Of a DNA stretch of 35,017 nt, positions 11,419-22,331 are shown piece after piece; the first letter of the stretch is position 1, and each line of letters starts with the position of its first letter. The position numbers and the translations under genes are program-made. The stretch spans positions 1 to 35,017 of the forward strand of contig JAJZEV010000145.1 of assembly GCA_021805665.1 (NCBI GenBank), written 5' to 3'. The notes beneath the pieces were generated by a model that saw only the letters and a program-made list of their open reading frames with translations, had not been told where the DNA came from and did no database searches. This DNA is from Pseudomonadota bacterium. GTDB taxonomy: Bacteria; Pseudomonadota; Alphaproteobacteria; Acetobacterales; Acetobacteraceae.

Positions 11419-11606
11419 CGCGGCATCTCCTCTGAACTTTCATTCCCGAGGGCGCGCGGCCCGTCATGCGCTACCGATCTGGCGGACGAACAGAGTCGCG
11501 GCCATGGCATTCGCTTATCATGTGCCTGTTTCCGCTTTTCGTGCGATCACGACTCCGCGACCAGCGCCGGCTTTCCCAACTGGCCCGAATGCGTCACGAT
11601 CCCCGC

Positions 11607-13238
11607 ATGACGGACCCGATCACCATCGCCGTGCTGCAAAACCGCCTGAGCGCCATCGCCGAGGAGATGGGCGAGGCCATGTTGCGCACCGCCTATTCGC
11701 AGATCCTGAACTCCTCGCGCGACTTCTCCATTGCGCTGATCGACGCGCGCTGCCGGCTGGTGGCGCAGGCAGACCATATTCCGGTTCATGTCGGCGCGAT
11801 GCCCTGGGCGGCGAAAGCCTTGTCGGAACGCTTCCCCGATCCGTCGCCCGGCGATGTGTATCTGCTGAACGACCCGTATCGCGGCGGATCCCACCTGCCC
11901 GACCTGACGATCTTCGTTCCAGTCTTTACCGGCGCGACCCTGATGTTCTGGTCGGTGGTCCGCGCCCATCACTCCGACATCGGCGGCGCGACGCACGGCG
12001 CATACAACCCCGCCGCGACGGAAATCTGGCACGAGGGCCTGCGCCTGCCGCCGATGCGGCTGACCGAGAACGGCGTGCTGCGCGAAGACCTGCTGGAAAT
12101 GCTGGCCCTGAACGTCCGTCACCCCCGCGACTTCCGTGGCGACCTCGCCGCCCAAATCGGATCCGCTCGGTTGGGCGAGCAACGCCTGAACACCGTCATC
12201 GGGGAATTCGGCCCCGAAACCCTGTCCGCCTCGATCGAGGCGATGCTGGACGCCGCCGAACGCCACGCGCGACACATCGTTGCGGAATGGGCGGACGGAG
12301 AATACCGCGGCGAAGCGCTGCTGGACGACGACGGCTTCGGCAAGACCGACATCGCCATCCGGGCGGTTGTGACCAAGCGCGGCAGCGATATCGTGGTCGA
12401 TCTGACGGAGTCGGACCCGCAGGTTACCGGGTTCGTCAACTCGTCCTACGCCAACACCCGATCGGCGGTGGCGATGGCGTTCGCCTTCATGCTCGATCCC
12501 GATATCGCCAAGAACGACGGCGCGTTTCGGCCGCTGACGGTAAAGCTGAAGGAAGGCACCATCGTCTGGGCGCACGAGGGCGCGCCGGTGACGATGTGTA
12601 CCAGCCACTGCTCCAACGAAATCGTCGAGGCGATCATCGTCGCACTGGCCCGGGCCGCGCCCGAACGGGCCATGGGCGGTTGGGGCCGGCGGTTGCGGAT
12701 CGCGCTGAACGGCACCGATCCGCGCACAGGCCGCCGATTCATCTGGCACATGTTCCAGGCCCGTCCCGGCGGCGGCGGTTCCGCGGCTGGCGATGGGTAT
12801 TCGACAATCGGCGAGTGGCATTCCGCCGGGGGGATCAAGTTCGGCAGCATCGAGGTGGCTGAAACCCGCTTCCCGCTGGTATTCGAAACCCACGAATACC
12901 GGCTTGGATCGGGCGGCGCCGGCCTGCATCGGGGCGGCGACGGCGGCGATATGCGGCTGCGGGTCGAAGCCGCCGGGACAACGAAGGCGAACACCGCCGG
13001 GGAGGGCGTGGTGCATGGCGCCCGCGGCATCAACGGTGGCGAGGACGGCGCGCCGCATGACTACACGTTGTTGGCGCCCGGTTCGGCGCCCCGGAAGCTG
13101 AAAAGCAAGGAGATCGACGTGCCGGTTCCCTCCGGCAGCGTGATCCACGTGCTGTCCGGCGGCGGTGGCGGCTGGGGCGTGCCGGCGCAGGCCAATGCCA
13201 CCGGATCGGCGTTGTCGCAGCCGTTGTTGCCCACATGA
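11607..13238 (+). CDS. hyuB: Hydantoinase B / 5-oxoprolinase family, B subunit
   Basis: A 543-residue protein of normal length for HyuB. It has the N-terminal ILQNRL-like pattern (IAVLQNRLSAIAEEMG), AMLRTAYSQILNSSRDFS, NDPYRGGSHLPDL, RAHHSDIGGATHG and, near the C-terminus, the Gly-rich LSGGGGGWG. With the A subunit it forms an ATP-dependent cytoplasmic amidohydrolase that opens hydantoin-like or 5-oxoproline rings; some relatives carboxylate acetone or acetophenone. I chose the ATG at 11607 because family members begin close to MTDPITIAVLQ. An in-frame ATG at 11589 is possible. Neither has a clear Shine-Dalgarno. The B gene precedes the A gene here, overlapping it by four bases. Substrate unknown. 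Confidence 0.88.
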   Translation: MTDPITIAVLQNRLSAIAEEMGEAMLRTAYSQILNSSRDFSIALIDARCRLVAQADHIPVHVGAMPWAAKALSERFPDPSPGDVYLLNDPYRGGSHLPDLTIFVPVFTGATLMFWSVVRAHHSDIGGATHGAYNPAATEIWHEGLRLPPMRLTENGVLREDLLEMLALNVRHPRDFRGDLAAQIGSARLGEQRLNTVIGEFGPETLSASIEAMLDAAERHARHIVAEWADGEYRGEALLDDDGFGKTDIAIRAVVTKRGSDIVVDLTESDPQVTGFVNSSYANTRSAVAMAFAFMLDPDIAKNDGAFRPLTVKLKEGTIVWAHEGAPVTMCTSHCSNEIVEAIIVALARAAPERAMGGWGRRLRIALNGTDPRTGRRFIWHMFQARPGGGGSAAGDGYSTIGEWHSAGGIKFGSIEVAETRFPLVFETHEYRLGSGGAGLHRGGDGGDMRLRVEAAGTTKANTAGEGVVHGARGINGGEDGAPHDYTLLAPGSAPRKLKSKEIDVPVPSGSVIHVLSGGGGGWGVPAQANATGSALSQPLLPT

Positions 13239-15289
13239 TCTGCAGCATCGGCATCGACGTCGGGGGCACCTTCACCGACATCGTCGTCTCCGTCGCCGGC
13301 GGCGGGACCATCGTCGCCAAGGCCTCCACCACCCCGGCGGACCAATCGGACGGCGTACTGAACGGGATCGCACTGGCCGCCGAACGCCTGGGTCTGACCG
13401 TGGCCGATCTGCTGGGTTCTGCCGCCCGGATTGTGCATGGCACCACCGTCGCCACCAATGCGTTGCTGGAGGGCAAGGTCGCCCGCACCGGCATGCTGAC
13501 CACCACCGGGCATCGCGATGTGATCGAAATGCGCGAGGGTCTGAAGCCCGACCGCTACAACCTGCGCATGACTCCGCCCCGGCCGTTGGTGCCCCGCGCG
13601 CTGCGCCTGCCGGTCACGGAACGCATCCGAGCGGATGGATCGGTCGAAATCCCGCTGGATACCGCATCGCTTGACGCGGCGATCGGGATATTGCGCGATG
13701 CCGGTGTTCAGTCTGTTGCCGTCTGCTTCCTGCATTCCTGGCGGAACCCGGCGCACGAACGCAAGGCCGCCGCCGCGATCCGTGCCAGGCTGCCCGGCGT
13801 TTACGTGACCACGTCGTCAGAAGTCCTGCCGCAGATCAAGGAATTCGAGCGTTTCTCCACCGCCGTCGCCAATGCCGCCGTCGGACCGGTGATCGAACAC
13901 TATCTTGGCCGCCTGCAATCCCGCCTGCGCGGCGCGGGGTATGACGGCGAGCTTCTGGTGATCCTGTCGCATGGCGGCGTCGCATCGGTTGCCGAGGCGA
14001 TCCGCCTTGCCGCCGGCACCGCATTGTCCGGGCCGGCGGGCGGTGTGGCGGCGGCGGTCGCGCTGGTGCGGGACGGGTTGTCGCCGGATGTCATTGGTTT
14101 CGATATGGGCGGCACGTCCACCGACATTGCCGTGGTGCGTAACGGGCAGCCGACCCTGTCGGGCGACAAGGCCATTGGCGGTTCACGGATTGCCTTACCC
14201 AGCCTGGATATCGTGACGCTGGGGGCTGGCGGCGGGTCGATCGGCAAGCTGGACCGGTCGGGCCTGCTGGCCGTCGGCCCGGAAAGCGCGGGCGCGGTAC
14301 CCGGACCGGCCTGCTATGGCCAGGGCGGTTCGGGCGCCACCGTGACCGACGCCAACCTGGTGCTTGGCTACCTCGACCCGGCCAATTTCCTGGGCGGACG
14401 CCGCCGGCTGGACTTGGACGCGGCGACCGCGGTGGTGGCAAGACTCGCTGCCGATCTGGGGATCGAAACCGCCGAGGCCGCGGCCGGAATCCACCGTGTG
14501 GTGAACAGCCGAATGGCGGATGGGGTCCGCATCGCGACGGTGCGCCGCGGCGTCGATCCGCGCCGGTTTACCCTGCTGGCATTCGGCGGCGCCGCCGGCC
14601 TGCATGTCACCGCCGTGGCCGCCGAACTGGGCATCGCCCGCATCGCCGTGCCCGTCGCGGCATCGGTCCTGTCGGCCTGGGGCATGCTGAAAACCGATCC
14701 GCGGGTCGAACTCAGCCGCGGCCAGGGCCAGTCGGGCAACCTGGACACAACCGGACTCCGATCCGCCTTCGCCGCGATGGAGGAAGAAGGCCGCGCTCGG
14801 TTGGCATGGTTCGATGGCGAGGTCGCCCTGCGCCGCTCCGCCGACATGCGCTATGGGGAGCAGGTGTTCGAAATCGCGGTCCCGCTGGACGGCCTGGACT
14901 TGGAGTCCCCCACCCTGGCCACCGATTTAGCCGATCGCTTTCACGCGGCGCACGAAGCCCTCTACACCTATGCGCTGCGCGATCAGGAGGTTGTTCTGGT
15001 CAACGCCCGCCTGTCGGTCATCGGCCGCCTGCCGCCGGTGGAACGCGGTGCGGCCGATACCGCCACGGCCGACGCGGCGCCCAAGGCCCGTCGCCGCATA
15101 TTCCTGGGCGACTGGATCGACGTGCCGGTCTTCGACTTCGGGGCCGTTTCCGAAAAGCAACGGATTTTGGGACCGGCGCTGGTCGAATCCGATACCACAA
15201 CCGTGCTGCTGCGTCCCGGCGACACCGCCTGCCTCGACAACAGGGGCTGGCTGGACGTCGCGATTGACCGCCGGCCCGGGCCGGCGTAA
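13235..15289 (+). CDS. hyuA: Hydantoinase A / 5-oxoprolinase family, A subunit
   Basis: A 684-residue protein of the ASKHA-fold HyuA family, the ATP-binding partner of HyuB. Diagnostic segments are GIDVGGTFTDIVV at the N-terminus (phosphate 1 loop), HGTTVATNALLEGK near residue 70, LSGPAGGV near 265, GFDMGGTSTDIAVV near 288 (phosphate 2), GGGSIGKLD near 330, and FGGAAGLH near 450. The ATG overlaps the hyuB stop as ATGA, so the subunits are coupled. The next gene starts 24 bases after its stop behind a strong Shine-Dalgarno, and appears to belong to the same operon. The ring substrate is undetermined. Confidence 0.9.
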   Translation: MICSIGIDVGGTFTDIVVSVAGGGTIVAKASTTPADQSDGVLNGIALAAERLGLTVADLLGSAARIVHGTTVATNALLEGKVARTGMLTTTGHRDVIEMREGLKPDRYNLRMTPPRPLVPRALRLPVTERIRADGSVEIPLDTASLDAAIGILRDAGVQSVAVCFLHSWRNPAHERKAAAAIRARLPGVYVTTSSEVLPQIKEFERFSTAVANAAVGPVIEHYLGRLQSRLRGAGYDGELLVILSHGGVASVAEAIRLAAGTALSGPAGGVAAAVALVRDGLSPDVIGFDMGGTSTDIAVVRNGQPTLSGDKAIGGSRIALPSLDIVTLGAGGGSIGKLDRSGLLAVGPESAGAVPGPACYGQGGSGATVTDANLVLGYLDPANFLGGRRRLDLDAATAVVARLAADLGIETAEAAAGIHRVVNSRMADGVRIATVRRGVDPRRFTLLAFGGAAGLHVTAVAAELGIARIAVPVAASVLSAWGMLKTDPRVELSRGQGQSGNLDTTGLRSAFAAMEEEGRARLAWFDGEVALRRSADMRYGEQVFEIAVPLDGLDLESPTLATDLADRFHAAHEALYTYALRDQEVVLVNARLSVIGRLPPVERGAADTATADAAPKARRRIFLGDWIDVPVFDFGAVSEKQRILGPALVESDTTTVLLRPGDTACLDNRGWLDVAIDRRPGPA

Positions 15290-15299
15290 CAGCGAAGGC

Positions 15300-15305
15300 A
15301 GGAGG
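15300..15305 (+). promoter_or_regulatory. Strong Shine-Dalgarno for the glutaredoxin-DinB gene
   Basis: AGGAGG, eight bases before the ATG at 15314. It is one of the best ribosome binding sites in the window. It decides the start, since the only other candidate, an internal GTG at 15422, has none. Translation beginning here must pass the in-frame TGA at 15356. Confidence 0.85.
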
Positions 15306-15313
15306 TCGAAGCG

Positions 15314-16078
15314 ATGCAAGGCGACACCGCACTGAATGTCTTTTGGCAGCCCGGATGAACGAGCTGCCTGAAACTTAAAGAGTTTCTCTCGGTCCGTGCG
15401 ATCGGGTTCAAGTCCATCAATGTGCTGACCGACCCTGACGGGGCCGATGAACTGCGCCGCCTGGGTGCGCGCTCCGTTCCCGTGCTGTCGCGCGGCGACA
15501 ACTGGATATTCGCCCAGAATCTAGGCCATGTGGTAAGGTTCCTCGGGCTGAATGAAACAACCGGCCCGGTGCTGCCGCCTGCGCGGTTGATGGAACGGCT
15601 GGACCTGTTCGTCCGGACCGCGATCCGGATCGTCCCGCAAATGCCCGACGCGCTGCTGAGCCAGGAGGTTCCGGGACGGCCGCGCAGCTATCTGGCGCTG
15701 GCGCACCACCTGTTCCGCATCCCCGAAAGCATTCAGGAGGTCGCGGCCGGCGCGATGCTGACCAATGGGATGCTGACCGACGGACCACCGCCGGACATGA
15801 ACACAAGTGCGGCACTGGGCGCCTACGGTCAGCGTGTCCTCACAGCGATGAATACATGGTGGGACGCGAAACCCGATAAATCCGGCCGCGAGACGGTGCA
15901 AACCTATTACGGCCCGCAGCTTCTGCACGAACTGCAAGAGCGCATGACCTGGCATTGCGGCCAGCATGTGCGGCAGTGGTTCATGCTGCTGGAAATGGCC
16001 GGGATCCAGCCCGTTGTCACACTGAACGCCGCGGCCTTCGCCGGATTGCCGATGCCCGCGAGCGTTTGGGACGGTTAG
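15314..16078 (+). CDS. Probable selenoprotein: glutaredoxin-like domain fused to DinB domain, in-frame TGA at codon 15
   Basis: Read through the TGA, this gives 254 residues. Residues 1-14 form the first strand (LNVFWQPG), followed by TGA15-Thr-Ser-Cys18, a helix (LKLKEFL), and RSVPVL with the cis-proline at Pro56. This is a complete glutaredoxin/thioredoxin fold whose CxxC has TGA for the first, catalytic Cys. Residues about 90-254 are a DinB-like four-helix domain with His131/His132 and a terminal HCGQH (His214, His218), the usual metal triad. DinB-fold proteins include thiol-dependent transferases and isomerases. The frame is otherwise undamaged and codon use is normal, which fits selenocysteine insertion better than decay. 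The gene lies 24 bases after hyuA and is probably co-transcribed with it. A recent nonsense mutation or sequencing error remains possible. Exact reaction unknown. Confidence 0.75.
15356..15358 (+). other. Candidate selenocysteine codon (UGA)
   Basis: The TGA is in frame with both the strong upstream start at 15314 and the long downstream frame ending at 16078. It occupies the N-terminal cysteine of a CxxC redox motif, giving U-T-S-C, the position most often taken by selenocysteine in thioredoxin-fold selenoproteins. A single-base change (TGC to TGA) separates it from an ordinary cysteine form. Confidence 0.7.
15360..15391 (+). promoter_or_regulatory. Candidate bacterial SECIS stem-loop after the UGA
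   Basis: Starting two bases after the TGA, CGAG (15360-15363) pairs with CTCG (15388-15391). After an asymmetric internal loop (six bases against one), GAAACT (15370-15375) pairs perfectly with AGTTTC (15381-15386), closing a five-base loop TAAAG. The apical loop begins 17 bases after the TGA, inside the distance range described for bacterial SECIS elements. The usual G in the first two loop positions is missing (the only loop G is last), so the match to the known consensus is partial. Confidence 0.5.
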
Positions 16079-16381: not shown

Positions 16382-17689
16382 ATGGACCAGCCGAACCAAC
16401 CGCACGACACAGAGCGTTCGGCCCCTGCTGTTGGACGGCGGCTTAGCCCGCGTGTGCAATTCATTCTGCTTGCGTTCGCCGCCGCCGCGATCCTGGCCGG
16501 TTTTGTCGCCGGCCCGGCCCTGCTGCGCCTCGCGGGCCTGGAGCCTCATGAGGCAGCGAACCAGGAACAGCCCGCGACGGTGGACGGACAGACGTTCAAG
16601 GCGACCGACAAGCAATGGCAGTTACTGAAGATCAAGCCGGTAGCCGAACTGCCATTTCAGAACAGCTTCGAAACCGACGGCCGCATCGCGCTGGACGACG
16701 ATCTGGTGACGCCGGTATTCTCGCCGTTCTCTGGCCACGTCACGAAACTGCTGGCGGAGGAGGGGGAGGTGGTGCGCCAGGGCGATCCTCTGTTCAGCAT
16801 TCAGGCCACCGAACTGGCGCAAGCCCAGAATGACGTGATCAGCGCGGTCGCGGCGCTGAAAACCGCAAAGGCGCAGTTAAATCTGGCGACCACGAACGAA
16901 AAGCGGCAGCATGACCTGTTTACCGCACAAGGCGCCGCGCTAAAGGACTGGCAGCAGGCGCAGGTCGATCTCGCTACCGCACAAGGCGGAATGAACAGCG
17001 CATCCATCGCGCTGGCGGCAGTGCGCAGCAGGTTGCGCATTCTGGGTAAGACCGAACACGAGATCGAACAAATCGAGGCAACGCCCGATATTCTGCACCT
17101 GGATGCCGACAGCGCCGTCGGTGCGCCCATCGGCGGCACGGTGGTCCAGCGCCAGATCGGCCCCGGGCAGAACATCGTCAGCGCCGCGTCGGGCGAAGCC
17201 ACCCCGGTGTTCATGATCGGCGATCTGTCGAAGCTGTGGCTGGTGGCGAACGCGCGGGAGGACAGCGCGCCATTTCTGCACAAAGGCGATACGATTCGGG
17301 CTACGGTCGCCGCACTGCCCGGCCGCATCTTTACCGCACGCCTGACATACGTCGCCGCCACCATCGACCCCAACACCCATCGTCTGACAGTGCATGCCGA
17401 ACTGGAAAACACTGACGGCGCGCTGAAGCCAGAGATGCTGGCATCGTTCCGCATCCTTACCGGAAGCATATCCTCCGCCCCCGCGATGCCGGAATCGGCG
17501 TTGGTCTATGAAGGCGATTCAGCCCATGTCTGGGTCGCGAATACCAAAACGCGGACCCTGGAAATACGCCAGGTGAAGCTGGGACGAACAAGCGGCGACA
17601 TGGTGGAGGCAACCGGCGGCATCCACGCCGGGGAAGAAATCGTGACCGCGGGTGCGGTGTTCATCGACCGTGCCGTGTCCGGCGACTAG
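16382..17689 (+). CDS. RND efflux periplasmic adaptor (CzcB/HlyD-type membrane fusion protein)
   Basis: A 435-residue protein with one N-terminal membrane anchor (about residues 25-47). A lipoyl-like half (VTPVFSPFSGHVTKLLAEEGEVVRQGDPLF) follows, then an alpha-helical hairpin (about 140-220), the second lipoyl half (IGGTVVQRQIGPGQNI) and beta-barrel and proximal domains (DLSKLWLVANARE; VEATGGIHAGEEIVTAG). It links the inner-membrane pump to the outer-membrane factor. It precedes the RND pump gene by 11 bases and shares its operon. There is no His-rich metal-binding extension. The family assignment is firm; the exported metal is unknown. Confidence 0.9.
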   Translation: MDQPNQPHDTERSAPAVGRRLSPRVQFILLAFAAAAILAGFVAGPALLRLAGLEPHEAANQEQPATVDGQTFKATDKQWQLLKIKPVAELPFQNSFETDGRIALDDDLVTPVFSPFSGHVTKLLAEEGEVVRQGDPLFSIQATELAQAQNDVISAVAALKTAKAQLNLATTNEKRQHDLFTAQGAALKDWQQAQVDLATAQGGMNSASIALAAVRSRLRILGKTEHEIEQIEATPDILHLDADSAVGAPIGGTVVQRQIGPGQNIVSAASGEATPVFMIGDLSKLWLVANAREDSAPFLHKGDTIRATVAALPGRIFTARLTYVAATIDPNTHRLTVHAELENTDGALKPEMLASFRILTGSISSAPAMPESALVYEGDSAHVWVANTKTRTLEIRQVKLGRTSGDMVEATGGIHAGEEIVTAGAVFIDRAVSGD

Positions 17690-17700
17690 GGGCACCGACG

Positions 17701-20700
17701 ATGGGTCAACTGATCGAATTTGCTCTGAAGCAGCGGATTCTGGTGTTTATCGTCATGCTTGCGGTATTCGTCGGCGGCACCGTGGCATTCCTGAAACTGA
17801 ATATCGAGGCCTATCCAGACCCGGTGCCGCCGCTGGTGGACATCATCGTTCAGAATCCCGGTTCCTCGGCGGAGGAAATGGAACGGAACATGACCATCCC
17901 GGTCGAAATCCAGATGGCCGGGATTCCCAATGTGACGGCCATCCGGACCATCTCGTTGTTCGGCTTGTCCGACATCAAGGTGCAGTTCACCTACGATTTT
18001 ACTTATGATCAGGCGGAACAGTGGGTCATCAACCGGCTGTCGCAGTTGCCGCCGCTGCCGAATAACGCAACGCCCCAAATTTCCCCGGAAAGCCCGATCG
18101 GCGAAATTCTGCGATACCGCGTCGTGGGCCCGCCCGGATATTCGGTCATGGACCTGAAGACGATCGAGGATTGGATGCTCGAACGCCGCTTCAAGGCCGT
18201 CCCGGGCGTCGTCGATGTGAATGGATGGGGCGGTAAGACAAAGACCTATGAGGTCAGGATCGATCAGAACAAGCTGATCCACTATGGTCTGTCGGTGCCC
18301 CAGGTCATTGCGGCCCTGAACAATGCGAACGTCAATGTCGGCGGCCAGACCGTTGACTTCGGGGAGCAAGCCGCGGTCGTGCGCGGCATCGGGCTGATCC
18401 ATTCGCTGGACGACATCCGCGATACAATGATCTCCCAGAACAGCGGGGCGCCGGTCCTGATCCGCGATGTCGCGACAGTAGGCGTATCGAACCTGCCAAG
18501 GCTCGGGGTTGCCGGCCAGGATTTCGACAACGACATCGTTCAGGGCATTGTGTTGATGCGCCGCGGCGCGGAAAGCCTGCCTACCATCGAACGCGTCGAG
18601 GCGTTGATGAGGAAGATAAACACCTCCAACATCCTCCCTCCCGGCGTTCGGCTGGAGCGGATATATGACAGAGCGGATCTGATCCACGTCACCACGCACA
18701 CGGTGCTGCACAATATGCTGGAAGGCATCGTGCTGATTTTCGTTCTGCAATGGTTGTTTCTAGGTAATTTTCGAAGCGCCGTGATCGTCTCGGCAACCAT
18801 ACCCTTCGCGTTGGCTTTTGCCATCGGCCTGATGCTGCTGCGTGGCGAATCCGCCAACCTGCTCTCGGTGGGCGCGATCGACTTCGGCTTAGTGGTGGAT
18901 GCAACCGTGATCATGGTGGAGAACATATACCGCCGCTTGTCCCAGGCGCCGTCGATGCGGTTCGCCCAGTCAGCCGTCATTCACCGCGTGCAGACAGCCG
19001 CCAACCTGAAGGGTAAATTCGCCGTCATCGCAAATGCGGCCACCGAGGTAAACAAGAGCATCTTCTTCTCCGCCATAATAATCGTTGCCGGGTTCGTTCC
19101 GCTCTTCACGATGAGCGGTATCGAAGGACATATTTTCGGCCCAATGGCGAAGACTTACGCCTATGCGATCGCAGGCGGCCTGATCGCGACATTCACCATT
19201 TCGCCCGCTCTGGCGTCCGTACTCCTGAAAAATCAAGAAAGCGAGAAGGACACGATCATCGTTCGTGCGCTTCATCGCCTTTACAGCCCCCTGCTCCGGT
19301 TCGCGTTGGCGAACCGTATCCTGGTTTTAGGCGCGATGGTGGTCCTCGGCGTGCTCGCGGGGGCGTCCGTGCGAGATCTGGGACTCGAATTCCTGCCTAA
19401 ACTGGAAGAAGGCAACCTGTGGGTTCGGGCCACGATGCCCACCTCGGTCTCCCTCGATGCAGGGAACGCAACCGTGGACGGCATCCGCGGGATACTCAAA
19501 TCATATCCCGAAGTGGTGACGGTCGTGTCGCAGCATGGCCGGCCGGATGATGGAACAGACGCCACCGGCTTCTTCAACGCCGAATTCTTCGTTCCCCTCA
19601 CCCCGTTCGATACCTGGCCGGCGGGGATGAATAAGGACAAACTGACCGAGGAAATCACCAACCGGCTCCAGGAACTATACCCCGGGGTCATTTTCAATTT
19701 CTCTCAATATATCGAAGACAACGTCGAGGAAGCGGCGTCCGGTGTGAAGGGCGAAAACTCGGTCAAGTTGTTTGGCGGCGATCTGCGGACACTGGAAAAG
19801 ACGGCGGACCAGATCAGCCATACGATGGGCACGGTCAGCGGCATAACCGACCTGGGGGTGTTCCGGTCATTGGGGCAGCCTACGGTGCGGATCGACATCG
19901 ACCGCGTGAAAGCAGCTCGTTACGGACTGGCGCCGGGCGATATCAATACAACAGTTCAGGCGGCGATCGGTGGCCAGGCCGCGGGCAATCTCTACGAAGA
20001 TGGTTCCGACCGGAATTTTCCGATTATCGTCCGCCTGGCATCGGAATATCGCAAAAGCCTGGATGCGATCCGCCGGATCGCGATCGGCGCGCCCAACCTT
20101 AACGGCAATGGAATCGTGCCAATCCTGTTGACCGACGTAGCCGATGTACGGCTGGCCTCGGGCGCGGCCTTTATCTACCGCGAGGGGCAGGAGCGTTACA
20201 TTCCGATAAAGTTCAGTGTTCGCGGTCGCGACCTTGGTTCAGCCGTCCTGGAAGCACAGAGAAAGGTCGATGAAGCGGTCTCGATTCCCAGCGGATACCA
20301 TCTTGAGTGGGTCGGCGAATTCGGCAACCTGCAAGAGGCGATCGGCCGGCTGGAAATCGTCGTCCCCATCACCCTGGGGCTGATCTGCTTGCTGCTGTTC
20401 GCGAATTTCGGCTCCATGACTGACATGGTCCTCGCGTCCAGCGTCATCCCCATGGCCCTGATCGGTGGAATATTTGCACTGTGGATTACGGGAACGCCAT
20501 TCAGTGTCTCCGCCGCCATCGGTTTCATCGCATTGTTCGGTATCTCGGTCATGGAGGGAATTATCGTAATTTCCTACTTTAATCAGTTGCTCGAATCCGG
20601 TTTAGACCGAGCGTCCGCCGTCATCCGTGCTGGTGAAATCCGGCTGCGGCCGGTGATGATCACGTGCTCCACGGCCTGCGTCGGGCTGCTGCCGGCCGCG

Positions 20701-20874
20701 TTCTCCAACGGCATCGGTTCCCAGGTGCAAAAGCCGCTGGCTTTGGTCGTCGTCGGCGGCATCCTTCTGGCCCCGGCGCTCATCCTGATCGTGCTGCCCG
20801 TTCTGATCGACGTGTTCTCCAGGCGGGCAGTTCGGCATGATCATCTTGGGGCGGCGGCGGAGACAGCGGAATGA
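17701..20874 (+). CDS. Heavy-metal efflux RND permease (CzcA/CusA type)
   Basis: A 1057-residue inner-membrane pump of normal RND length with twelve membrane helices and two large periplasmic loops. The fourth helix carries DFGLVVDATVIMVEN with Asp394, Asp400 and Glu407, the proton-relay pattern that marks the heavy-metal (HME) branch rather than the drug-exporting HAE branch. It uses the proton gradient to export divalent or monovalent metal ions through the adaptor and outer-membrane partners. No Met triad can be confidently assigned, so Co/Zn/Cd versus Cu/Ag is left open. The stop overlaps the next start by four bases (ATGA). No metal-responsive regulator or two-component system is in the window. 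Confidence 0.92.
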   Translation: MGQLIEFALKQRILVFIVMLAVFVGGTVAFLKLNIEAYPDPVPPLVDIIVQNPGSSAEEMERNMTIPVEIQMAGIPNVTAIRTISLFGLSDIKVQFTYDFTYDQAEQWVINRLSQLPPLPNNATPQISPESPIGEILRYRVVGPPGYSVMDLKTIEDWMLERRFKAVPGVVDVNGWGGKTKTYEVRIDQNKLIHYGLSVPQVIAALNNANVNVGGQTVDFGEQAAVVRGIGLIHSLDDIRDTMISQNSGAPVLIRDVATVGVSNLPRLGVAGQDFDNDIVQGIVLMRRGAESLPTIERVEALMRKINTSNILPPGVRLERIYDRADLIHVTTHTVLHNMLEGIVLIFVLQWLFLGNFRSAVIVSATIPFALAFAIGLMLLRGESANLLSVGAIDFGLVVDATVIMVENIYRRLSQAPSMRFAQSAVIHRVQTAANLKGKFAVIANAATEVNKSIFFSAIIIVAGFVPLFTMSGIEGHIFGPMAKTYAYAIAGGLIATFTISPALASVLLKNQESEKDTIIVRALHRLYSPLLRFALANRILVLGAMVVLGVLAGASVRDLGLEFLPKLEEGNLWVRATMPTSVSLDAGNATVDGIRGILKSYPEVVTVVSQHGRPDDGTDATGFFNAEFFVPLTPFDTWPAGMNKDKLTEEITNRLQELYPGVIFNFSQYIEDNVEEAASGVKGENSVKLFGGDLRTLEKTADQISHTMGTVSGITDLGVFRSLGQPTVRIDIDRVKAARYGLAPGDINTTVQAAIGGQAAGNLYEDGSDRNFPIIVRLASEYRKSLDAIRRIAIGAPNLNGNGIVPILLTDVADVRLASGAAFIYREGQERYIPIKFSVRGRDLGSAVLEAQRKVDEAVSIPSGYHLEWVGEFGNLQEAIGRLEIVVPITLGLICLLLFANFGSMTDMVLASSVIPMALIGGIFALWITGTPFSVSAAIGFIALFGISVMEGIIVISYFNQLLESGLDRASAVIRAGEIRLRPVMITCSTACVGLLPAAFSNGIGSQVQKPLALVVVGGILLAPALILIVLPVLIDVFSRRAVRHDHLGAAAETAE

Positions 20875-22331
20875 TCCTTCGCCATCTAACCGCCCTGCCC
20901 CTGGTTCTGGCCCTGCTCGGCGGCTGTGCCGTGGGACCCGACTTTGAAACCCCGAAGCCGCCGGAAGAAGCCGGCTATGGCAAAGACGTTGCGCCGCCGC
21001 CAGCCGACGACACCACCCAGCGTCTGGTATTCGGCCACGACGTCGCCGGCGACTGGTGGCACCTGTTCCACTCCGAACCCCTGAACGCCCTGGTGCGGCA
21101 GGCCCTGGCCAACAACCCGACCATGGCCGCCGGTCAGGCCGCACTCCGGCAGGCCAGGGAAAACGTCGCCGCACAGCAGGGATTTTACTATCCGTCAGTG
21201 TCCGCCGGGATAGATGCCAGCCGCAATCTGACCCCGCTTGCTGCCTTGTCCCCAACAGGACCGAACGGCAACCCGTACTACAGCCTAGTCACCCCGCAGT
21301 TGAGCGTGGCGTTCGCCCCGGATGTCTTTGGCGCCAACCAGAGGGCGGTGGAATCGTTGCAGGCCCAGGCTGACAACCAGCGGTTCATGCTGGAAGCCAC
21401 ATGGGTTACGCTGACATCGAATATCGTGGCGGCTGCGATTCAGGAAGCATCGCTGCGCGGGCAGATCGGGACGGTCGAACAAACCGTCCGGATCGAGGAC
21501 GATCTGCTGACAATCCTGCGTGCCCAGCAACGACTTGGCCAGGCATCGGGCGCAGACGTGGCGGCGCAAGAGGCAGCGCTGGCGCTGGCCCAGCAGCAAC
21601 TGCCGCCGCTGCGCAAGCAACTGGCACAGCAACGGGATGCGCTGATCGCCCTGGCCGGCCAGTTTCCAGACGACGACATCGCACAAAAATTCGATCTCGT
21701 CTCGTTCCAGCTACCCACGGAACTGCCAGTCAGCCTGCCGGCCGATCTGGTGAAACAACGCCCGGATATACGGCAGGCGGAGGAAAATCTGCACGCGGCC
21801 AGCGCAAATATCGGCCAAGCGGTCGCGGCACGCCTGCCGCAGATCGTGCTAACGGCACAGGCGGGAAACAGTGCCAACAGTCCCGGCAACTTGTTTACGC
21901 CAGCCACGAATTTCTGGAGCGTGACCGGCGGATTGACTCAGCCTTTATTCGACGGCTTCACCCTGATGCACCGTCAGCGCGCCGCCCAAGCCGCATTCGA
22001 TCAAGCCGCCGCGGAATACAAAAGCACGGTATTGACCGCTTTCCAGAACGTCGCCGATGCCTTGCGCGCGCTGCAATCCGATGCCGATGCCGTGAATGCC
22101 GCCGCAGCGGCGGAACGGGCGGCCGGACGCAGCCTGGAGATTGCCCGCAAGCAAATGCAACTAGGTGAGGTTGCCTATCTTGCGCTGCTGAACGCACAAA
22201 ATGCCTATGCGCAGGCCCAGTTGTCGCAGGTTCAGGCCATCGCGATCCGGTTGGCGGATACCGCGGCACTGTTCCAGGCGTTGGGCGGCGGCTGGTGGAA
22301 CCGGCCGCCGGACCCGGACGCCAATCCATGA
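20871..22331 (+). CDS. NodT-family outer-membrane efflux lipoprotein
   Basis: A 486-residue outer-membrane factor. It has a lipoprotein signal with lipobox LLGGC (Cys19) followed by AVGPDFETPKPP, which is characteristic of the NodT/OprM branch. Two repeated coiled-coil/beta units follow, e.g. DWWHLFHSEPLNALVRQAL and, in the second half, LPADLVKQRPDIRQAEENL, a hallmark of the family. As a trimer it forms the exit channel of the RND system encoded by the two preceding genes. The start overlaps the pump stop (ATGA). The operon order adaptor-pump-channel differs from the classic czcCBA order. Confidence 0.92.
   Translation: MILRHLTALPLVLALLGGCAVGPDFETPKPPEEAGYGKDVAPPPADDTTQRLVFGHDVAGDWWHLFHSEPLNALVRQALANNPTMAAGQAALRQARENVAAQQGFYYPSVSAGIDASRNLTPLAALSPTGPNGNPYYSLVTPQLSVAFAPDVFGANQRAVESLQAQADNQRFMLEATWVTLTSNIVAAAIQEASLRGQIGTVEQTVRIEDDLLTILRAQQRLGQASGADVAAQEAALALAQQQLPPLRKQLAQQRDALIALAGQFPDDDIAQKFDLVSFQLPTELPVSLPADLVKQRPDIRQAEENLHAASANIGQAVAARLPQIVLTAQAGNSANSPGNLFTPATNFWSVTGGLTQPLFDGFTLMHRQRAAQAAFDQAAAEYKSTVLTAFQNVADALRALQSDADAVNAAAAAERAAGRSLEIARKQMQLGEVAYLALLNAQNAYAQAQLSQVQAIAIRLADTAALFQALGGGWWNRPPDPDANP

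Follow-up and report, generated by a model that had tools for sequence, protein, structure and literature searches.

A probable selenocysteine form of the glutaredoxin–DinB fusion in Acetobacteraceae and other alphaproteobacteria

Glutaredoxins that carry selenocysteine (Sec) are already known, as is the glutaredoxin–DinB architecture in a cysteine form. The work on cGrx1 describes this protein as a native selenoprotein glutaredoxin (PMC7642778), and one protein of the cysteine-type fusion, P0204, is named glutaredoxin/uncharacterized damage-inducible protein DinB by JGI. A 119-entry table of prokaryotic selenoproteins, which takes in the families cited from Haft and Tolstoy 2025, lists glutaredoxin and several glutaredoxin-like families and holds no DinB fusion; the word DinB is absent from that source (PMC13188914). 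Here we report the analysis of a gene within a 35,017-nucleotide (nt) stretch of Acetobacteraceae DNA (hereafter referred to as the window), in which an in-frame UGA occupies the position of a glutaredoxin cysteine. The gene very probably encodes a selenoprotein, its UGA being predicted to be read as Sec by SelA, SelB, SelD and tRNA-Sec with a nearby hairpin as the likely SECIS. The first-pass annotation, made from the letters of the window, had proposed a probable selenoprotein with UGA in place of the catalytic cysteine, and this proposal is now supported by the conservation of the UGA, by the Sec genes and by a hairpin found only in the UGA forms. Judged by sequence, a single group of the family has UGA in place of the catalytic cysteine, conservation of the hairpin is confined to the UGA forms, and the Sec genes are present. 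In the sources checked, the Sec form of the fusion appears to be uncatalogued.

Reading frame of the fusion gene

The gene, a predicted selenocysteine glutaredoxin–DinB fusion, spans positions 15314..16078 on the forward strand, and its read-through translation comprises 254 residues with Sec15 predicted in the motif WQPG-U-TSC. An AGGAGG Shine–Dalgarno-like site (15300..15305, forward strand) lies 8 bases before the ATG at 15314, which opens a run of 14 sense codons; the TGA follows at 15356..15358 and is succeeded by ACG AGC TGC (Thr-Ser-Cys), with 239 sense codons in all between the TGA and the TAG stop at 16076–16078. Each of these elements had been described in the first-pass annotation, and all were confirmed in the sequence. 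The TGA, on the forward strand, aligns with the first cysteine of the CxxC motif in homologues, and the TGC at 15365..15367 (forward strand) encodes Cys18 of UTSC, the predicted resolving cysteine. An in-frame TGA at the glutaredoxin cysteine codon is far beyond chance. It had also been anticipated that an ordinary gene caller would start at the internal GTG at 15422 and lose the redox motif. The standard open reading frame (ORF) there (15422..16078, forward strand) is indeed a truncated one of 218 residues without the motif, and its length fits the database matches of 193–236 residues described below.

Conservation of the UGA codon

A six-frame search found the gene in 25 of 33 genomes of the genus, and TGA is present in all 25 holders. 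In one of these (G019) the gene is split over three contigs, with one fragment beginning past the TGA and the other two showing it; G023 holds residues 4–30 only, and G002 also has only part of the gene. Across the class, 22 of 240 genomes matched, and after two short, glutaredoxin-only matches (G273 and G132) had been dropped, 20 full-length homologues were left, including that of the window's genome. The codon is TGA in 12 of them and TGC or TGT, at exactly that position, in the other 8. Codon 15 is thus either UGA or a cysteine codon throughout this alignment, in agreement with the earlier assignment of the TGA to the N-terminal cysteine of a glutaredoxin CxxC. The first-pass annotation had named other disabling mutations in close relatives as grounds for refuting its proposal; no further stop was found in the matched frame of the 20 full-length class homologues. 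With the window's genome counted once, the TGA form occurs in 36 genomes in eight families. Among nine public loci (from Acetobacteraceae, Rhodopila and one Proteobacteria metagenome assembly), eight cover the codon and all eight carry TGA; these loci coincide with contigs already counted in eight of the genus genomes and therefore add no further cases.

The protein sequence on both sides of the TGA is constrained. The ratio pN/pS is 0.20 in codons 7–14, upstream of the TGA, as expected of one continuous frame running through it, and 0.08 in residues 16–23, indicating strong protein-level constraint; Cys18, the second cysteine of the motif, does not vary among the 28 aligned members. In a maximum-likelihood tree of 28 rows, a single branch separates all 20 Sec rows from the rest, so that the Sec form looks, from these sequences, like one old lineage, with moderate support for the branch (83/92; 84% of 200 bootstrap trees). 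The eight Cys forms of the class are 38–45% identical. In the wider phylum, where at most six candidates were scored per genome, 119 of 398 genomes matched, with full length only in the window's genome and G100; the remaining listed matches are short and lie within the glutaredoxin part.

Selenocysteine machinery

All four components that the first-pass annotation had named as a check, selA, selB, selD and tRNA-Sec, were found in the window's genome (4.55 Mb, 347 contigs, 94.5% complete). The tRNA-Sec scored 70 bits against a gathering score of 47, SelB 403 bits against a cut-off of 242, SelD 295 bits against 125, and SelA, encoded directly beside the tRNA-Sec on contig 50, 537 bits against 268. 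The SelD match (G000:C241:1207-2079, L081) lies within a 707-residue open frame, and this SelD may be fused to another domain.

Of the 20 class genomes that have a full-length gene, 14 score over the cut-off for SelA, and the same 14 do so for SelB, comprising 11 of 12 TGA genomes versus 3 of 8 Cys genomes (Fisher p 0.018, relatedness ignored). The sole TGA genome missing both over the cut-off, G045, is 77% complete. The same 14 genomes each have a tRNA-Sec match of at least 67 bits. By itself the tRNA-Sec search is unselective, with matches over the gathering score in 5 of 14 control genomes as well as in 16 of these 20 class genomes; the matches of 52 and 48 bits in the Cys genomes G115 and G191, in which SelA and SelB are below cut-off, were not counted, because many of the 14 have second matches at 48–52 bits too. 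Of 23 other class genomes, outside the fusion family, 2 have SelB over the cut-off (p 2e-6 versus the TGA holders, relatedness ignored). Within the genus, SelB is over the cut-off in 21 of 25 gene holders and in 4 of 8 non-holders. The four holders without it are 64–80% complete, and one of these, G020, has a SelB fragment.

A hairpin restricted to the UGA form

RNAalifold, supplied with no structure, folded 29 aligned TGA rows (28 distinct; a 49-base fragment, L068, was left out of the alignment) into a 7-pair hairpin at columns 33–51 with two additional outer pairs. In the window, this predicted bacterial SECIS hairpin (15388..15406, forward strand) has a 7-base pair (bp) stem, in which 15388–15394 pair with 15400–15406, and a CGTGC loop at 15395–15399; it begins 29 nt past the UGA, and 36 nt separate the TGA and the loop. 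Across the TGA rows, 97.4% of hairpin cells pair, and three pairs have changed on both sides. None of 500 shuffles reached the observed pairing, both-side changes or covariation score, and 13 of 500 reached the number of further pair types; as the shuffles ignore relatedness, these counts are not probabilities. Pairing drops to 17–50% when the partners are slid by 1–3 columns, and in the eight Cys rows 39.3% of cells pair, no better than in their own shuffles.

Synonymous variation points to the same region. Among 33 distinct TGA genes, pS in codons 24–33 is 0.186, compared with 0.605 in codons 7–14, 0.719 in codons 16–23, 0.612 in codons 34–84 and 0.598 in codons 85–254, and in the eight Cys genes pS in codons 24–33 is 0.584. 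Since pS collapses here in the TGA genes and not in the Cys genes, the conservation of the hairpin is not explained by protein constraint. When runs of eight codons were ranked by their excess of identical codons, the eight top-ranked runs all started at codons 20–27.

The bSECIS model given in PMC13188914 has a loop of 3–9 nt with a G within its first two positions, an upper stem of 4–16 bp, a distance of 16–37 nt from the UGA and a minimum free energy of at most −7.5 kcal/mol. The window hairpin agrees with this model in its loop (5 nt, CGUGC, with G then U), stem (7 bp) and spacing (36 nt, close to the limit of 37), and its energy in isolation, −7.4 kcal/mol versus −7.5, is borderline. Ten relatives folded at −5.7 to −10.8 kcal/mol, with L024 at −5.7 and L027 preferring a shifted hairpin. 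In a single-sequence fold of the 57-nt stretch another structure is preferred, at −15, which is not unusual (z −0.81). At four formate dehydrogenase (FDH) loci of the genus (the L141 row was unused in this comparison), a SECIS-like loop lies nearer the UGA than in the fusion gene, and the SECIS elements differ; many bacterial SECIS elements are unlike one another, according to PMC13188914. A covariance model run on the window's genome, with 150 of 2133 first-look candidates scored, gave only the fusion gene and one chance-level match (E 2). A second hairpin, GAAACTC-AAA-GAGTTTC, lies closer to the UGA and is 85.7% paired, with no both-side changes; we rejected it as the principal SECIS, although it may add to the main element. 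Together, the consensus fold, the pair counts with their controls, the absence from the Cys forms and the synonymous freeze identify the 15388..15406 hairpin as a likely SECIS, to which SelB would bind.

Domain architecture and proposed function

The read-through protein matches the Pfam glutaredoxin model PF00462 (34.1 bits; cut-off 22.9), as do 28 of 28 family members at E ≤ 0.01, and it also lies near NrdH-type models with scores below their cut-offs. This glutaredoxin/NrdH-like thioredoxin-fold domain covers residues 4–80 (15323..15553, forward strand). Residues 85–240 (15566..16033, forward strand) are assigned to a DinB/YfiT-type helical bundle. The DinB model PF12867 matches 23 of 28 family members at E ≤ 0.01; the window protein itself gave no match at E ≤ 5, and its C-terminal part shows the DinB/YfiT helical-bundle fold. 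Three histidines of this part, His132, His214 and His218, are invariant in 28 of 28 aligned members and form a predicted metal site, which may correspond to the metal triad of the DinB superfamily. A sequence search of the PDB with just the DinB part found nothing above chance level, its best match (E 0.021) being a ribosomal protein. Among solved structures, those of cGrx1, 7c10 (E 1.8e-13) and 7c12, score best by profile.

These features suggest how the protein might work. SelB would bind the hairpin and insert Sec15; this residue would attack a substrate of disulfide, selenenyl or mixed-thiol type, and Cys18 would then carry out the resolving step. The fused DinB-type bundle may bind a metal through its three invariant histidines and, by analogy with the mycothiol transferase branch, provide a place where a small thiol or electrophile is held or activated. 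On this view the fusion would be a reductase or transferase that depends on thiols and serves redox or electrophile defence.

Gene neighbourhood

Gene order around the fusion gene is not conserved, the fusion family being the sole cluster common to more than four of 25 stretches in a crude ORF clustering. Hydantoinase/oxoprolinase B and A genes (11466–15289) lie upstream in the window, ending 24 bases before the selenoprotein gene, and are possibly on one transcript with it. The hydantoinase-A gene is directly upstream in the window and in three of four close relatives clustered (L014, L015 and L018; not L020); it occurs in none of the 20 wider loci and was therefore not used for function. Positions 16382–22331 of the window encode an efflux system consisting of an HlyD-type membrane-fusion protein, an AcrB-family transporter and an outer-membrane efflux protein.

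In G087, an osmC-like gene, the Sec glutaredoxin–DinB gene and msrA stand in a row on one strand (L120:7466-9262; Pfam), and tRNA-Sec, selB and selA lie 7–9 kb from the fusion gene. We rejected msrA and osmC as general partners, as they occur at 1 of the 27 sequences tested, including the window, several of the stretches ending at contig ends. Similarly, selA lies 8 kb from the fusion gene in G127, and sel genes lie 13–17 kb away in G230, which has the Cys form; this proximity in three genomes is suggestive, not general. Between the fusion-gene row and the sel genes of G087 is an ORF (L120:13334-14770) whose C-terminal piece is GRDB-like, perhaps another selenoprotein gene.

Database annotation

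The best 120 matches listed, out of 1891 in the database search, all lack the N-terminal motif and are 193–236 residues long, which would explain why the family was missed: gene models start after the UGA, so that databases hold a headless DinB protein. Another 111 listed proteins include 63 that are short and motif-less and 46 with a CxxC. On the basis of protein identity, the short database relatives are presumably Sec forms. The window protein exceeds the cut-off of no model in NCBIfam release 20.0; among selenoprotein models the UXX-star families come nearest, with NF041212 at 28.4 bits against a cut-off of 66. The first-pass annotation knew of no described selenoprotein combining glutaredoxin and DinB, and neither the 119-family table nor NCBIfam supplied one. 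The literature searches, in which passages of PMC12013277, PMC9312934, PMC2398784, PMC1088965, PMC8124441 and PMC5029168 were also consulted, gave no paper joining glutaredoxin, DinB, fusion and selenocysteine, and none combining three of the terms selenoprotein, selenocysteine, Rhodopila and Acetobacteraceae. The family could nevertheless be described in Haft and Tolstoy 2025 or in Deng et al. 2026 (groundwater genomes), and some of the Sargasso/GOS Grx and Grx-like members could belong to it. The present analysis brings to light a likely selenoprotein family concealed by current annotation.

Alternative readings of the UGA

If the UGA were a true stop, the locus would encode a short leader peptide, and the DinB part would be made alone from an internal start, either the GTG at 15422 or a Leu codon after the motif. 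Gene callers do pick such starts, and databases do hold motif-less proteins of 193–236 residues. However, a stop at this position explains neither the constant placing of the UGA at the catalytic cysteine nor the constraint on residues 7–14 (pN/pS 0.20) and 16–23 (0.08); the hairpin kept only with the UGA and the co-occurrence with Sec genes are left unexplained as well, and a start at 15422 would halve the thioredoxin fold. We consider termination at the UGA quite improbable. Another amino acid, such as Cys or Trp, might instead be inserted through near-cognate decoding or a changed code, given that a frame open through the UGA does not specify the inserted residue. Yet TGA also works as a stop in the window, where it ends 8 of the 13 larger ORFs checked (not all 13 are proven genes), including the Pfam-matched hydantoinase-B gene; moreover, the genome holds a full set of Sec genes, and the SECIS-like hairpin is restricted to the UGA forms. 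Insertion of a residue other than Sec is very improbable.

The fragmented assembly of the window's genome, with its 347 contigs, might raise the suspicion of a decaying pseudogene or an assembly error, but the same TGA recurs in 36 genomes, no other stop interrupts the matched frame of the 20 class homologues, and the gene is under purifying selection. This reading, scarcely credible, is in effect refuted by the TGA in the genus and class genomes. Among the observations that count against insertion of Sec is the presence of Sec machinery in three genomes with the Cys form as well. Decoding of the UGA as Sec is the reading that we retain.

Formate dehydrogenase and upkeep of the Sec trait

Of the 32 TGA-gene genomes searched, some of which are incomplete, 5 have an FDH of the TIGR01553 family with a TGA, as does one of the three Cys-form genomes with Sec machinery; four further TGA genomes of 64–80% completeness (G002, G014, G020 and G023) were left out of the search. 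The other 27 of the 32 have no TIGR01553 match at E 1e-60, so that what maintains the Sec trait there becomes directly testable. The window's genome likewise has no TIGR01553 match at E 1e-60, and all 14 of its FDH-type matches are without TGA; FDH was therefore rejected as the selenoprotein of this genome. G127 carries, besides the usual Sec-FDH, a second, more distant TGA-containing FDH (G127:C102:17171-20152, L143; 937 bits).

The fusion protein may help to maintain the Sec trait, and if the window's genome has no other selenoprotein, its Sec system would be kept for the Sec fusion. A broader proposal, which we put forward tentatively and regard as rather unlikely to hold in full, is that the Sec fusion is the main selenoprotein upholding the Sec system in many alphaproteobacteria without Sec-FDH and represents a new kind of selenoenzyme. 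Such an enzyme would be a selenium-dependent small-thiol transferase or reductase whose metal-bound DinB centre receives electrons or a thiol from the selenol glutaredoxin on the same chain.

Comparison with known systems

The predicted Sec fusion can be set beside several described proteins. It shares with cGrx1 of Clostridium oremlandii (7c10) the glutaredoxin fold and a Sec or Cys at the first position of the U/CxxC motif; however, the 7c10 chain is a single domain of 84 residues and its motif is U(C)PxC, whereas the window protein has UTSC and a DinB-type C-terminal domain. The UXX-star models (NF041212, NF041211 and NF047338) describe small glutaredoxin-like (seleno)proteins and weakly match the N-terminal domain, but they span 70–71 positions and lack a DinB part. 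Sec-formate dehydrogenase (TIGR01553) is decoded by the same SelA/SelB/tRNA-Sec system, although it is an unrelated enzyme. On the C-terminal side, the DinB/YfiT superfamily includes mycothiol S-transferase (8f5v) and mycothiol-dependent maleylpyruvate isomerase (2nsg), from which the window protein differs by its fusion to a predicted selenocysteine glutaredoxin. The Cys-type glutaredoxin/DinB fusions, such as P0204, have the same two domains and the same length but carry a cysteine at the UGA site and lack the hairpin, five of the eight class hosts of Cys forms being without SelA or SelB over the cut-off. The Sec and Cys forms of this one fusion provide a clean pair for asking what selenium buys.
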